64,000 nt of DNA, taken from Oryzias latipes. Taxonomy: Eukaryota; Chordata; Actinopteri; Beloniformes; Adrianichthyidae. The position numbers and the translations under genes were made by a program. The stretch's first letter is position 1. The number at the start of each line of letters is the position of its first letter. The DNA is taken from positions 10,443,983 through 10,507,982 of the forward strand of contig NC_019859.2 in the NCBI RefSeq assembly GCF_002234675.1, read 5' to 3'. This document shows positions 8,701 to 56,336 of the stretch, in pieces. The notes beneath the pieces are model-generated. The model made no database searches and was not told the origin of the DNA. It saw only the letters and a list, made by a program, of their open reading frames with translations.

Positions 8701-9754
8701 GAGTTGGAAAATCAGGTCAACAACTCTGTTCAGGACGAATGTCATTCATACATTTAGACTTAACTATGCTCTTTATATGACACAATAGACCATTTATTGT
8801 TGGTCTGTACCAAAACACAAACATTTTACATGCATAACTGCAAAACTGGTTGGAGCTAAAGAAGTTCCCGTGGCTCTAGAGATGATACAATTGGAATCCT
8901 TCTACCAAACAAAGATTCCTGAAAAGAAACCCCATTTTCAATCTATTTTTCATTAATCTGGAAATGTGTATAAAATCCTTCAAATATATCAAAAGATATA
9001 TAGGAAAAAATATACAAAAAGTTAACTAAAACGACATTTAAGATTTTTTTTTTGGGGGGGGGGGGGTGTTTGTTTGACACTTAAGCTTGTTATAAAGATA
9101 TGTTTTGATTTTTGTTTTTTGATTTTTTGTTTAATTTAATTTTAGTTATCTTCTCTGCCTAATATAACCTTGAAAAAAAACTACGTTTGGGGCTTCTTTA
9201 CAATTTCATCTTTTTTAATCTAAAAAATATGATAAATTTGCTCCCTTAAACTATTCGCCACAAATACACAAAAATATTTTTAGTACTCAAATAAACATTT
9301 TTTTTAGAATTTTTTTTGGAACAAATTAGAATTTTGTGGATATAAAATAGTATATAATGCAGGCATATTTGTTTTTTGTGTACCCTAATTTGCAATTGGT
9401 GGGTACAAATGAGTATTTTTTCAGTGAACAAATTCATATTTTGTATCATATAGGCACAAATTATTATTTTCAGCGCACATATTAGCATTTTGCCAACACA
9501 AATTTAGATTTTGTGAACACAAATTAGCATTTTCTGTTCACAAATTAACATTTTGTATCCATTTTGTGCACATAAATGAGCATTTTGTGTGCACAAATTA
9601 GCAAAGCATGCATGCAATTACTTGAAAAAAAAATAGTTTTACGCCACGCCAAGTATCAGGAATAAACGCTCACTTTGGGTAATCTAAAGCATTAAAGGAT
9701 AAGTTAATAAAAAGTCTTTTTTAATCAATGTAAAATATTGCTGAATTAATCAAA
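8701..9754. repeat. Intergenic AT-rich DNA with degenerate minisatellite
   Basis: No gene is seen. A run of guanines lies at about 9053-9066. From about 9260 to 9605 a degenerate tandem motif recurs, built on ACAAATTAGCATTTTGTG-like units of 20-35 bases, with ATTTTGT and CACAAAT alternating. It encodes nothing recognisable. Confidence 0.6.
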
Positions 9755-9770
9755 TAAAAAGCTAATATTA
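9755..9770 (+). repeat. Target-site duplication, left copy
   Basis: The 16-base sequence TAAAAAGCTAATATTA here is repeated without mismatch at 14575-14590, exactly bracketing the LINE insertion. This is the signature of target-primed reverse transcription. Confidence 0.92.
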
Positions 9771-9771
9771 G

Positions 9772-9996
9772 AAATACCAGGAAATGGCTTTCCGAGTATA
9801 TGAAGACTACAGCCCTGAGGTGGTGGAACAGAGGAAAGTTTATAAAACTGTGATGTCGGACATGTATCAGAAAGGCTTGCGGCCCTCTCTGCTTTACCCA
9901 GCACGGTTACGCATCATCAAAACGGATGGCACCCGTGTCATGTTCAACTCTGTGGATGAGGCTAAAAAGTTTGTGGAAGACTTTGGACGAGATTAA
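9772..9996 (+). pseudogene. LINE ORF1 C-terminal fragment (truncated)
   Basis: The last 70-75 codons of an L1-type ORF1 remain. The peptide has the ORF1p C-terminal-domain pattern: DYSPEVVEQRK, then GLRPSLLYPARLRI, then FNSVDEAKKFVEDFGRD at the end. The full protein, an RNA-binding chaperone that coats LINE RNA, is several times longer. The upstream trimer and RRM regions are missing because the insertion is 5' truncated. The ATG at 9784 is probably internal, not the native start. Identification rests on the motif pattern only. Confidence 0.75.
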
Positions 9997-10480
9997 ACTG
10001 TCTACTTCAGGTGAAGTATGGAGCTGCTCTAATGCCAAACCATTAGCGTGTAGCTAAGCGTGATGCTCCATGCTTCACGCTACAATCTGCCAATAATTGT
10101 TTACAATGGGTATTTCATAAATACTCTTTAAGATATTACGTCCATTCCTTACTTGCTGTTTCTGTGTGTTTGTTTTAAAGTTTACCTTGTTCTCTTAAAC
10201 TTTATTTTTTTATCTTTATTTTTTTAATAGTTTAACTTACTATTTAAGTATTTGTAGGATAGGTAGGTTGAGTATGGAAGGTTTGCATTTAGATAAGGTA
10301 GGTGTGCTGCAGACATTTGCAGCTAGTTTCACCTGTTTTTTTTTTTTTTTTTTTTGTTTGTTGTTGTTGTCTTTTTGGGGGGGAGGGGGCTGTTTGGGGT
10401 TTGCTGTCTATGTTTCTAGCTCGAACGTTGTATAAATGGTCTGGTGATTATTTCATCCCTCCCTAGCAACACAAGTTGTA

Positions 10481-13400
10481 ATGGCTGGTTCCATTAATAT
10501 TATCACCTGGAATGTAAAGGGCTTAAATCACCCCATTAAAAGAAAGAAGGCTCTGACACACTTAAAAAATTTGAGCGCGGATATAATCTTCCTACAAGAA
10601 ACTCACCTCAAAATCTCGGATCACAACCGGTTGAAATGTGGCTGGGTGGGGCAGCTTTTTCATTCTTCCTTTCAAGGGAAAGCTAGAGGGACTGCAATAC
10701 TTATAAGAAAAAATATCTCTTTTACATGCTCCTCTGTCCTGGCTGATCCGGCTGGCAGATACATCATAGTTACTGGCTCACTTTATAATCTTGGTGTTAT
10801 TTTGGTCAATATTTATGCTCCCAATTGCGATGATCCTTCCTTTTTCGCACGCGTTTTTGGTCAGATACCGTGCCTTAACACACATTTCCTTATTATGGGA
10901 GGAGACTTTAACCTATGCCTGAACCCTGGGCTGGATAGGTCGTCTGTGAAACCTGGATACTCTGTACCTAAATCTGTTGCCCATGTTCAATCATTCCTCT
11001 CCACCTATGGCGTTTTGGATATCTGGCGTTTTTTACACCCACAAGACAGGCAATATTCCTTCTTCTCAAATGCGCATCAGTCTTACAGCAGAATCGACTA
11101 TCTCTTTACAGATAACAAATTGACTCCAAATATTCAGCTATGTCATTATCAACCAATTGTAATATCTGACCACGCCCCTCTTGTGCTAAAACTGAATATA
11201 CCTGCTTCCTTTTCTCCCAGGAGACACTGGAGATTTAACTCTCTTTTACTGAGTGACGAAACATTTGTAGATTTCATCTCAGACCAGATCTCCTTTTTCC
11301 TGGAATTTAATCTAACATCTGATGTCCCTATTGCAACTGTTTGGGAGGCTCTTAAGGCCTATCTTAGAGGTCAAGTGATATCTTTTATGGCCAAAAAGAA
11401 ACGTGATTCTGTATCAAGGCAGAAAGATCTGGAAAAACAAATAGCTGATGTGGATCAAAGGCACTCTCAAAACCCCACACAAGATTTATATAAAAAGCGC
11501 TTGGCACTCAGTGCTGAGCATGACAGGCTCACATCACACTCTATTGAATACTTGTTAATGAAAAATCGGAGCAACATGTATGAACATGGGGATAAGGCAG
11601 GTGAAATACTGGCGAGGCAACTGAAAAGTGCGAGGGCCAAGCAAGTTATTCATGGGGTTGCTGCACCAGATGGCACAGTTTTGACTGACCAGCAGGAAAT
11701 AAATGATGCTTTCCAATCTTATTACTACAAATTATATAGCTCTGATAATATGTGCAACTCTAACCTTCTTTCTGAATTTTTTAGAGACCTACAAATACCC
11801 ACCCTGAGATCAGAGGAACTGTCGAGGTTGAATGCGCCTATACAACAGCAGGAAGTCTTGAAAGCAATTAGGGCTTTACATCCACAGAAATCACCAGGCC
11901 CCGATGGTCTGCCAAGTGAGTTTTATTCTACTTTTGCTGAAAAACTGGCCCCTTTGATGACCACAATGTTTGCAGACTCTTTCTGCAAAGGTACTCTTCC
12001 TAATAGTTTGAACCAAGCCAGTATTACTTTACTCCCTAAAAAGGATAAAAACCTACTAGAGTGCGGTTCTTACAGGCCAATTTCACTCTTGAATACTGAC
12101 TATAAAATCCTGGCTAAAGTCCTTGCCTGCCGACTCGAAACTGTCCTGCCTAGTCTTGTCTCTAATGACCAATCTGGTTTTGTTAAGGACCGTCGGTCAT
12201 TTTTTAGTATTAGACGGCTTTTCAATATTTTATACACCCCTAGTGTAACCGAATCTGAATGCCTTCTTTCCATGGACGCTGAGAAAGCCTTTGATAGGAT
12301 TGAATGGAAATATCTTTTTGAGACTCTAAACAAATTTGGGGTCGGGTCATCCTTTCTATCATGGGTCAAGCTTTTGTATACTTGTCCATCTGCTACAGTA
12401 CTCACTAATAATACCTACTCCAAACCGTTTAGTCTGCACCGTGGTACCCGACAGGGCTGCCCCCTCAGCCCACTACTCTTTGTGTTAGCCATCGAGCCCT
12501 TAGCAATAACAATAAGGAAAAATAATTACATTTGTGGCATTTCAAGATGGGGTACAGAACATAAGTTAGCCCTTTATGCGGATGACCTCCTGCTGTTTAT
12601 ATCTAAGGCTAAAGACACTATCCCTCACGTTTTAGAACTGCTTGGTAAGTTTGGAACTATCTCCGGTTACAAAATAAATCTGCAGAAAAGTGAGCTATTG
12701 CCACTTAACATATCTGATTCAGCCATGAAGGAAATTACTCTCCCATTTAAGATAACAAAAACTAGCTTTGTCTATTTAGGAATAACTGTAACACAAAAAC
12801 CCTGTGATCTGTTTAAAGAAAATTTTGGGAAACTGCAGGTGACAATACAACAGGACCTGGCTAAATGGTCTCCCCTCTACCTCTCGCTAGTTGGGAGAGT
12901 GAACGTGGTTAAGATGTCTGTATTACCCAGATTTCTATATCTATTTCAGAGCATCCCCGTATATATCCCTAATAGTTACTTTAAAAAACTTGACTCTATT
13001 ATCTCAGCGTTCATATGGAACGGCAAAAAACCACGGCTGCGCAAGGAACATCTGCAGAAAGCAAAACAACATGGTGGTTTTTCACTTCCAAATTTACGCT
13101 ATTATTATTGGGCTGCTAATCTGTTTTGTGTGACATACTGGGCACATTACTCTTATGATGTTGGACCGCCGTGGGTGGAGATGGAAAAACTTTCTGCTGG
13201 ACCTGGTCTGTTACCCTCGGTCGTTGGTGCAGCACTCCCACTGACTAAACCTCTGACTATTGATAATCCTGTAGTACATAACTCGATTAAAATCTGCCAT
13301 CAATTCAGGAAACATTTTGGTTACTTAGGGATGAGCCTGCAAGTTCCAATAGCATCCAATACATTTTTCCAACCTTCATTGTTGGATGCTGCATTTCAGA

Positions 13401-14275
13401 GGTGGCGGCGACACGGTTTGACGACCTTTAACGATTTATTTTTTGATAATCAATTTGCCACTTTTCAGCAACTGGTCGACAAATATAATGTTCCTAACTC
13501 AGATTTTTTTAGATACTTGCAGGTGCGTCATCTCATCATGACCTCCATCACAGGGTTCCCTATTAAACCTCCTCAAAATACTCTGGATAACATTTTGATC
13601 TTCAATCCCACCCGGAAGAAATCCATCTCTAAATTGCTTGGCATGATCTCAGCCATAGAGTCTTCCTCGATGCTAACCATTAAAACATATTGGGAGCAGG
13701 ATCTTGATGAAACCATTAATGAAACAGACTGGGAAAATATAGTGAGGAACATCAACTCATCCTCGATTTGTGCAAAACACTGTCTATTGCAGTTTAAGGT
13801 TGTGCATCGTGCTCACCTCTGTAAAGCCAGATTAGCCCAAATGTACCCACAAATTGATCCACTGTGTAACAGATGCAAATCAGCAGAGGCCACACTAGTT
13901 CATACTTTTTGGTACTGCCCCAAAATACAGTGCTTTTGGGGAAATATATGTGAGGCACTTAGCTGCATCTTGGGAGTCCAACTGACTTTAAACCCACTTA
14001 TATTTCTGTTTGGAATAAACAGCGGGGCTCCGACATTGCCTCCAGGTGGTCAGAGAATCATTACTTTTACAACTTTACTAGCTCGACGCCTCATTCTGCT
14101 TAAGTGGAAAGATGCTGCCCCACCCACTTTATCACATTGGATTCAAGATGTGCTTTACCATCTTAAGCTTGAAAAAATAAGATTTACTGTAAGACAATCA
14201 GAGCATAAATTTTATAAGGTATGGAGACCATTTCTCAACTTTTATAGTTTACCATCTACAAGTGTAACAGAATGA
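10481..14275 (+). CDS. LINE ORF2: endonuclease-reverse transcriptase, uninterrupted
   Basis: A 1264-codon open frame runs from ATG to TGA without breaks. Residues 1-240 form an APE-type endonuclease: ITWNVKGLNHP at the start, a LQETH block, GGDFN at 140-144, SRIDYLF, and SDHAPL from 229 with the catalytic Asp-His pair. The reverse transcriptase occupies about 440-800, with SPGPDGLPSEFY, YRPISLLNTDYKILAK, QSGFVKDR, MDAEKAFDRIEW, QGCPLSPLLF and the catalytic YADD at 699-702. A C-terminal Cys-rich motif has C1129, C1132, H1141 and C1146. All core catalytic residues are present, so the enzyme could be functional. The layout fits the L1/Tx1 group; the exact clade needs a tree. It is transcribed opposite to the neighbouring host gene. 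Confidence 0.95.
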   Translation: MAGSINIITWNVKGLNHPIKRKKALTHLKNLSADIIFLQETHLKISDHNRLKCGWVGQLFHSSFQGKARGTAILIRKNISFTCSSVLADPAGRYIIVTGSLYNLGVILVNIYAPNCDDPSFFARVFGQIPCLNTHFLIMGGDFNLCLNPGLDRSSVKPGYSVPKSVAHVQSFLSTYGVLDIWRFLHPQDRQYSFFSNAHQSYSRIDYLFTDNKLTPNIQLCHYQPIVISDHAPLVLKLNIPASFSPRRHWRFNSLLLSDETFVDFISDQISFFLEFNLTSDVPIATVWEALKAYLRGQVISFMAKKKRDSVSRQKDLEKQIADVDQRHSQNPTQDLYKKRLALSAEHDRLTSHSIEYLLMKNRSNMYEHGDKAGEILARQLKSARAKQVIHGVAAPDGTVLTDQQEINDAFQSYYYKLYSSDNMCNSNLLSEFFRDLQIPTLRSEELSRLNAPIQQQEVLKAIRALHPQKSPGPDGLPSEFYSTFAEKLAPLMTTMFADSFCKGTLPNSLNQASITLLPKKDKNLLECGSYRPISLLNTDYKILAKVLACRLETVLPSLVSNDQSGFVKDRRSFFSIRRLFNILYTPSVTESECLLSMDAEKAFDRIEWKYLFETLNKFGVGSSFLSWVKLLYTCPSATVLTNNTYSKPFSLHRGTRQGCPLSPLLFVLAIEPLAITIRKNNYICGISRWGTEHKLALYADDLLLFISKAKDTIPHVLELLGKFGTISGYKINLQKSELLPLNISDSAMKEITLPFKITKTSFVYLGITVTQKPCDLFKENFGKLQVTIQQDLAKWSPLYLSLVGRVNVVKMSVLPRFLYLFQSIPVYIPNSYFKKLDSIISAFIWNGKKPRLRKEHLQKAKQHGGFSLPNLRYYYWAANLFCVTYWAHYSYDVGPPWVEMEKLSAGPGLLPSVVGAALPLTKPLTIDNPVVHNSIKICHQFRKHFGYLGMSLQVPIASNTFFQPSLLDAAFQRWRRHGLTTFNDLFFDNQFATFQQLVDKYNVPNSDFFRYLQVRHLIMTSITGFPIKPPQNTLDNILIFNPTRKKSISKLLGMISAIESSSMLTIKTYWEQDLDETINETDWENIVRNINSSSICAKHCLLQFKVVHRAHLCKARLAQMYPQIDPLCNRCKSAEATLVHTFWYCPKIQCFWGNICEALSCILGVQLTLNPLIFLFGINSGAPTLPPGGQRIITFTTLLARRLILLKWKDAAPPTLSHWIQDVLYHLKLEKIRFTVRQSEHKFYKVWRPFLNFYSLPSTSVTE

Positions 14276-14574
14276 TGCCGTTTTTTTTTTTTTTTTTTTT
14301 TCTTCTTCTTTACGTGTGTATTAATATATTTGCACTTTACTTATTTTTTTATTTTATTTTTTTGTAATGTATATGCTATTTAACCTATACTGTGACAGAT
14401 TTTATATATTCATGTTTCTGCTTATAACTTGCACCATTTTATTTCCTTATATTTCCATTACTAAAATTGATATTGGTGTATATGACACTGACAGCAGCAG
14501 GGGGTGGGGGACTGGGTTTTGAGTTTGTTTGTTCTATGTTTTAAAACTGAAAACTTAATAAATATATAAAACAC

Positions 14575-14590
14575 TAAAAAGCTAATATTA
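14575..14590 (+). repeat. Target-site duplication, right copy
   Basis: This is identical to 9755-9770 and marks the 3' boundary of the LINE. The first bases (TAAAAA) could partly overlap the element's A-rich tail, so the true duplication may be a few bases shorter. Confidence 0.9.
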
Positions 14591-15789
14591 GTGTATTTAT
14601 TTCAAAAAATTAATTAAAAATTAATAAGAACTTCAGTGCTTAATGGTGTAAAACAAAAAGTAAACAGAAGGAAACTCAGACAGGAAAGAGACAGAGCAGT
14701 GGCTTTAAATCACTCATTTGTGTTTTAAATTTAATGACATTTTTGGATTCTAATTCATAAAGACTGCATCGCTGTAAGCATAACTGATGAGGGAATGAAC
14801 AAGTTGCCCAAGATGGGTTTATTGAGTTATATTCCTTAAAATGTAATTAAGCTTTTGCATTTTATTGAAGTCCGGCTTCAGATCAATCTTAATCCGTAGC
14901 TTGAAGGATTTGACTTTAGGGCTTGACAAATATTTACTGCTCACATGCAAAGGGGAACTTATTTAGCCATAAACGCTGTGGGCCTCTCTGTGAGGCTTTA
15001 TGCCCCACGTCTCAGTCTGGATGCTTCTTCTTATCAGCTCTGTGCAGGAAAACAGTGACTCACAAAAGTACACATCCTGAGGTGAGTAAATGAGTGTCTG
15101 TCAAAAAGCAGATGGGGATCAAATGTTTTCAGCATCTCCCTCCCTTAGTCCATTCTGTGTGTGATGCTCTTATCTGAGCTGCACTCTTTGCCTTTGGGTT
15201 GTAAAGGAGGGAGTCACGCCTCATGAGGACTGAGCTCACCTTGGATACGAACCACAATATAACAAAAATGATACTCTTGTTTTCTAAATTTACACAAATG
15301 AATTATAACGTTGTTCCTTAAACAATACTGCTTCAAATATCACCACTTTTATACTAAACTCACAAAAGTACGGTACTCTTAAGGAGAATCTTCTTTCTTT
15401 TTTAAAGTTTAAAAAAAAAATAGATGCCAAAATGGGATAATTAAAAATAATTGCTCACAGGTAATTTACTGGTTTGACCTCTCTCCAAAGAAGAGTTAGA
15501 AGAAAAAATTCCAACCAAACCATGTTGGAGTGGAAAATTTCAGATTAATGGTATTAGGAATATCTGGTGTTTGTTTTTCAAAGTAATCCCACAAATAGTA
15601 AAAAGTTTCATTTTTTAAAATTTAAATTAAGGACTTAAAAAGAGGAAATGTGTTGAAAGGATTGCTGGAAAAACTTGAAATCATACTGTCAGAAACTAGA
15701 TAACATACTTTATACTGCACTTTTTACACCATCCATTCTATTAATAAAATATTTTATAAGTATTTTATAATTTACAAGTCTTTATAAGA
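14591..15789. other. Intergenic, nothing recognised
   Basis: AT-rich, with no exon, RNA gene or transposon that I can name. Short A- and T-runs are the only structure. Confidence 0.5.

Positions 15790-39455: not shown

Positions 39456-56336
<16,881 letters not shown>

Follow-up and report, generated by a model that had tools for sequence, protein, structure and literature searches.

Evidence for a recent, 5'-truncated L1-clade LINE insertion in the medaka genome and for a sister copy from the same source lineage

The LINE at positions 9771–14574 of the stretch of medaka (Oryzias latipes) DNA analysed here, 64 kb long and called the window below, is very probably a recent, 5'-truncated insertion made by target-primed reverse transcription (TPRT). 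On the same reading, the element belongs to a low-copy family of the L1 clade and not to Tx1, it shares with a copy on C5 a source lineage that was under purifying selection, and none of the copies found in the assembly with a 5' end could be identified as that source. The insertion marks, at the level of a single site, that L1 was recently active in a model fish, and it can be typed across strains and wild populations. Since recent daughters were observed without an intact source being found in the reference, the location of fish L1 sources becomes testable with existing strain assemblies.

The element lies on the + strand and is flanked by two exact copies of TAAAAAGCTAATATTA, at 9755–9770 and 14575–14590, to which no further exact match exists in the 64-kb window. 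The next-best match has three mismatches, and a search at up to three mismatches found a single such place. Because shuffled sequence gave 1.41 expected matches at this tolerance, with three or more matches in 15 of 100 shuffles, the loose count is uninformative by itself, and the weight lies on the two exact 16-mers at both ends of the element. The identity goes one base beyond TAAAAAGCTAATATTA, with G at 9771 matching too (9755–9771 equals 14575–14591, 17 bp), and the target-site duplication is thus 16 or 17 bp long. The copy begins at about base 728–731 of an element of about 5.5 kb and keeps only the last 74 codons of ORF1 (9772–9996), in register with ORF1 of full-length copies (a 272-codon frame). 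This remnant is followed by 484 bases of spacer with T- and G-rich runs (9997–10480) and by ORF2 (10481–14275), which is intact over 1264 codons from the ATG at 10481 to the stop ending at 14275. The 3' UTR (14276–14574) carries a T-rich tract, AATAAA at 14557–14562 and the family 3' end ATATATAAAACAC, and terminates in ...AATAAATATATAAAACAC without a poly(A) tail. A degenerate 21-bp minisatellite is located at 9455–9603, about 150 bp upstream of the insertion.

Pfam analysis of the ORF2 product identified an AP-like endonuclease domain (PF03372, E 1.7e-15; 10490–11197) and a reverse transcriptase domain (RT; PF00078, E 1.3e-40; 12035–12790). The six motifs sought were all present, including WN, QETH, GGDFN, RID and SDH in the endonuclease and YADD at residue 699 (12575–12586), as was a C-terminal CCHC pattern, C-x2-C-x8-H-x4-C, found by motif scan at residue 1129 (13865–13918). 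The zinc-knuckle family zf-RVT matched ORF2 at 23.1 bits, under its cut-off of 27.5. Hence, the sequence-only reading of this stretch, which had proposed a perfect 16-bp target duplication, truncation inside ORF1 and an open 1264-codon ORF2 with endonuclease, YADD and CCHC motifs, was borne out on all of these points, the zinc knuckle at a sub-threshold score, and its statement that the copy itself is unable to encode ORF1 agrees with the 74-codon remnant.

The same reading had called the element an L1/Tx1-type LINE, of which the LINE insertion and the L1 part stood and the Tx1 part did not. An AP-like endonuclease and an RT are combined in a single ORF2 (Pfam and PDB matches), as in the L1 clade, and the best PDB match of this ORF2 was human L1 ORF2p at 585 bits. 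With the same program it scored 316 bits against one medaka ORF2 labelled as Tx1, a comparison made with this single reference and without a tree, and the Tx1-labelled ORF2 itself scored 260 bits against human L1. The full ORF1 of the copy on C9 matched LINE-1 ORF1p chains 2ykp and 2yko (E 6.4e-10, residues 66–247) and also the mouse-type chains 2ldy and 2jrb in the PDB search. Target sites fit a TTTT/A-type nick with target duplications (22 copies tried), as described below. The Tx1 label was rejected because of these ORF2 scores, the ORF1 match and the targets, and judged by these comparisons the family is best placed in L1 proper.

Membership in the Tx1 clade, as kin of Tx1L, Keno and Kibi, would draw on the alignment of the two medaka ORF2 proteins over 863 columns at 28% identity, on the C-x2-C CCHC pattern that both contain, and on the Pfam result for the full ORF1, where no L1 ORF1 family was named and all 18 weak matches were under their cut-offs. 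The ORF2 scores and the ORF1p match argue against it, as do the flanks of 14 duplication-bearing copies, which have just the nick motif in common and no fixed target gene or repeat of the kind used by target-specific Tx1 members. We therefore regard a Tx1 origin as very unlikely, keeping in mind that the Tx1 side of the comparison is one reference.

The L1-clade family resembles mammalian LINE-1 in having an ORF2 with endonuclease, RT and C-terminal CCHC pattern, an ORF1 related to LINE-1 ORF1p, a TTTT/A-type target, duplications of up to 18 bp and 5' truncation. Unlike mammalian LINE-1, it lacks a poly(A) tail wherever a 3' junction was read (14 duplication-bearing copies), and it is a low-copy family, with 42 places carrying the 3' end at up to three mismatches. 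Its CCHC spacing also differs from the C-x3-C-x7 of human L1, and about 480 bases separate ORF1 and ORF2, whereas the corresponding spacer in human L1 is short. Among teleost elements, Swimmer 1 (SW1) is likewise described as low in copy number and similar to mammalian L1 (Duvernell and Turner 1998), and a medaka sequence, AF055640, serves as a reference in PMC4746887; the family may be Swimmer 1 itself. The latter source reports young, diverse L1 families in zebrafish and counts six L1 families in medaka. An element of this kind is therefore ordinary, and the family may already be catalogued among those six; in the titles and abstract openings examined, we found no report of the window copy. 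A published medaka L1-Tx1 LINE (chr3:2856757–2860916; PMC8550402), from the same genome, likewise has an endonuclease, an RT and a zf-RVT-like end but belongs to another family, with 28% protein identity. This copy (L041, 50–4003) is present on C3 at the published coordinates as one open frame of 1317 codons.

The family was surveyed in the assembly (734,051,031 bases, 25 contigs), taken to be that of medaka Hd-rR. When the element was used as query and 40 of the 143 candidates were scored, at least 51 matches were obtained, many of them at 97–99% identity, and 30 loci were taken from these matches for further work. A 32-base pattern of the 3' end, at up to three mismatches, was found at the 42 places mentioned above, 19 of them exact, with none for the reversed control. 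In a 5'-end search, for which bases 1–730 of the C9 copy served as query (19 matches; 19 of 19 first-look candidates scored), young 5' ends (99%) were confined to C9, C16, C18 and C21; older ones were located on C12 and C3 (91–94%), a partial one on C6 (87%) and a weak match on C7 (66%). The remaining matches included a sister family, with nine places at 70–71% near the end of C22. Against this sister family, dN was 0.20 with saturated dS in ORF2 (670 codons), and dN was 0.21 with dS 2.33 in ORF1 (265 codons). Two copies, on C9 and C16, have a length of 5.5 kb and begin near GACTTCCGGTTGGG, and the ORF1 frame is open for 272 codons from stop to stop on C9, C16 and C21. On C18 (L033), a different element, about 650 bp in length and with a terminal repeat of about 10 bases, splits ORF1.

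Several minor observations were made during this survey. The 650-bp element has a 97% relative inside the C12 copy and another relative a few kb from the C9 copy. The nine sister-L1 places (C22:28837001–28953291; G000, with L023, L024 and L025) lie on one strand, 11–22 kb apart, and the three copies fetched from there are 97–99% alike over about 5 kb; this spacing and likeness point to a tandemly duplicated block. At L039 (C22:26204500–26212000), a family copy without a target duplication directly precedes a frame that resembles, by eye, ORF1 of a second L1-like LINE. L042 (C7:6249127–6249158) is a young copy of 160 bases, 99.4% identical to the window copy, with a readable duplication, and L044 (C13:6964643–6964674) has the 32-base 3' tail alone in common with the family, with unrelated upstream sequence and no clear duplication; it may represent either an extremely truncated family insertion or some other element that ends in this tail. 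Among the 42 3'-end places, of which part were inspected and six short ones fetched, no SINE partner with the same tail was demonstrated.

The junctions of the family copies indicate how they were inserted. Exact duplications of 10–18 bp were found in 14 of the 22 loci (from the set of 30) searched for them; seven others gave chance-size matches of 2–4 bases, and one had no recognisable tail. As read by eye, the duplicated target opens with TAA or TAG right at the junction, followed by purines, in 9 of the 14 copies. A looser reading raises this to 11 of 14, since L020 and L028 have T-A-rich letters just ahead of the exact match; C9 and L012 (C|AA...) as well as L014 do not conform. These sites fit a bottom-strand nick at TTTT/A. 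At the 3' junctions, the 14 copies read ...AAAACAC (AAAACAA in one) and at most a few letters before the target begins. The T that follows CAC in C9 and L012 does not come from the target, and the RNA therefore probably has ...CACU and then a short stretch of A, which pairs with target DNA. A folded recognition element in the 3' UTR was sought in three stretches, and no significant fold was obtained (z 0.47, −0.65 and 0.23). For the window copy, an L1-type endonuclease would have nicked the bottom strand at TTTT/A, TPRT would have started after ...AAAACACU, at the RNA 3' end, and halted within ORF1, and repair would have left the duplication of 16–17 bp. The end product of this series is what was observed, and the individual steps are deduced from the anatomy of many copies.

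The recency of the insertion rests on divergence. The window and C5 copies differ by 0.22% over 4001 aligned sites, and their truncation points, flanks and target duplications all differ. Near-identity combined with different truncation points and target sites suggests that one source lineage produced both copies recently. When two misaligned positions in a T-rich stretch are left out, seven substitutions separate them, two private to the window copy, both non-synonymous, and five private to C5. In the first 803 bases, where C5 has no counterpart, six sites distinguish the window copy from the other copies; four of them were polarised, and these changes may have arisen before or after the split of the two copies. 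As a calibration we used the SNP rate of 2.455% between Hd-rR and HNI and their split near 18 million years ago, as given in PMC5705604, which corresponds to about 1.23% per lineage. The window-private divergence (2/4001, 0.05%; Poisson interval about 0.006–0.18%) is about 4% (0.5–15%) of this per-lineage distance, and the insertion would thus be about 0.7 million years old (about 0.1–2.6), well after the split on this calibration; the interval is wide because there are just two window-private substitutions. The recent mobilisation proposed in the sequence-only reading is therefore well supported by the sister copy, and the finding that was to speak against it, a lack of other copies above about 95% identity, does not hold, as the element search showed. 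The open ORF2, which had been cited for recency, is a consequence of youth and hence no independent evidence of it.

Two other explanations of these features were considered and rejected. Gene conversion or duplication of genomic DNA, in place of two recent insertions, could account for a difference of just 0.22% between two distant places but not for differing truncation points, flanks and target duplications with no common flanking sequence at the junctions, and is highly improbable. Equally improbable is a domesticated ORF2 retained by the host, since 1264 codons open where several older copies are broken are expected from youth alone with two private changes in 4001 sites, both non-synonymous, and the C5 copy, elsewhere in the genome, is likewise open over the part present.

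A phylogenetic tree of the copies gave a ladder in which C3 and C10a lie outside, C21, C18 and C22+C19 are poorly resolved, C9, C16, C10b and C1b follow, and window+C5 come last. UFBoot values were 99 for window+C5, 96 for these with C1b, and 99 for the node that sets all the others apart from C10a and C3; the other nodes received 25–82. In mammals, too, L1 evolves as one dominant lineage. When the seven main copies were compared without polarisation, 17 of 3242 gap-free sites (12 synonymous, 5 non-synonymous) set window and C5 apart from all of C9, C16, C18, C21 and C22. At three of them (2135, 2395 and 3608), outgroup pieces carry the window/C5 base, so that there the other copies may be the changed ones. 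Polarisation with the C3 and C12 pieces gave 17 derived changes limited to window and C5 (11 synonymous, 5 non-synonymous and 1 non-coding). Some window+C5 bases recur in partial copies, namely 3107 in C1b and C10b, 3384 in C1b, 3857 in C19, 4340 in C1b, C10a and C10c, and 4581 in L047. C1b covers eight of the polarised sites and has the derived base at three (3107, 3384 and 4340), as expected if it represents an earlier branch of the window/C5 lineage.

Selection on ORF2 was examined at sites with two bases that are present in at least six of the seven main copies, polarised by the C3/C12 pieces or otherwise by majority (6 sites). The ratio of non-synonymous to synonymous changes (N:S) was 14:28 for changes common to at least two copies and 64:28 for private changes (Fisher p 1.3e-4), against a neutral expectation of 2.5–3.5 to 1; the comparison among copies, which had been suggested beforehand, thus gives purifying selection in the shared changes and none in the private ones. 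"Shared" is here a rough stand-in for inner branches, and some patterns conflict with a single tree or depend on one copy with the outgroup base. Changes limited to window and C5 gave 5:11 (p 0.005 against private changes). By copy, private N:S was 19:8 in C22, 18:3 in C21, 12:6 in C18, 9:2 in C16, 4:6 in C9, 2:0 in the window copy and 0:3 in C5; the C9 value is unlike neutral decay, and C9 alone does not show decay of daughters. Taken together, these ratios suggest that the source lineage kept a working ORF2 under purifying selection while the daughter copies decay.

The earlier expectation of a probable active source in this genome was not supported. The genome search for full-length source copies yielded 5.5-kb copies, and no copy with both ORFs open was found in the Hd-rR assembly by these searches, which give lower bounds. 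Frameshifting indels in ORF2 number one in C9, three in C16, two in C18, four in C21 (with two stops) and three in C22; among partial copies, there is a single one in C10a and in C10b and, as in window and C5, none in C1b and C19. Frameshifts could be assembly errors, although some deletions, of 4 and 13 bases, do not look like errors at single bases. The C9 endonuclease in addition has SYH in place of SDH. At the 17 gap-free sites, the changes shared by window and C5 are absent from all four young 5'-end copies. Because of the broken ORF2 and these differing sites, the immediate source is not among the 5'-end copies found. We infer that it existed recently and is now polymorphic in the population, lost from the inbred line or unassembled. 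The window copy has neither a 5' UTR nor most of ORF1 and presumably cannot mobilise by itself; at most it might supply ORF2p in trans. That the family still moves although no autonomous copy was found in the inbred genome is improbable; its source would then survive in only some wild fish, or the copies whose ORF1 is open (C9, C16 and C21) and those whose ORF2 is open (window and C5) would complement each other in trans. Such complementation would run against the usual cis preference of L1.

The surroundings of the insertion were examined with Pfam for 10 of the 42 frames listed in the window, six of which had no match. On the minus strand, LDL-receptor class A repeats (24.1–24.7 kb), EGF-type domains (23.4–24.0 kb), a helicase C domain (43.7–44.2 kb) and a peptidase C54 stretch (62.8–63.1 kb) were identified. 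The LINE sits 5 kb beyond a frame at 19.85–20.33 kb without a Pfam match, which we take to resemble an LDLR tail by its NPVY motif. A search of the window with Rfam gave no match. A 154-codon minus-strand frame at 49015–49479, also without a Pfam match, presumably resembles the end of an RTE-type LINE ORF.
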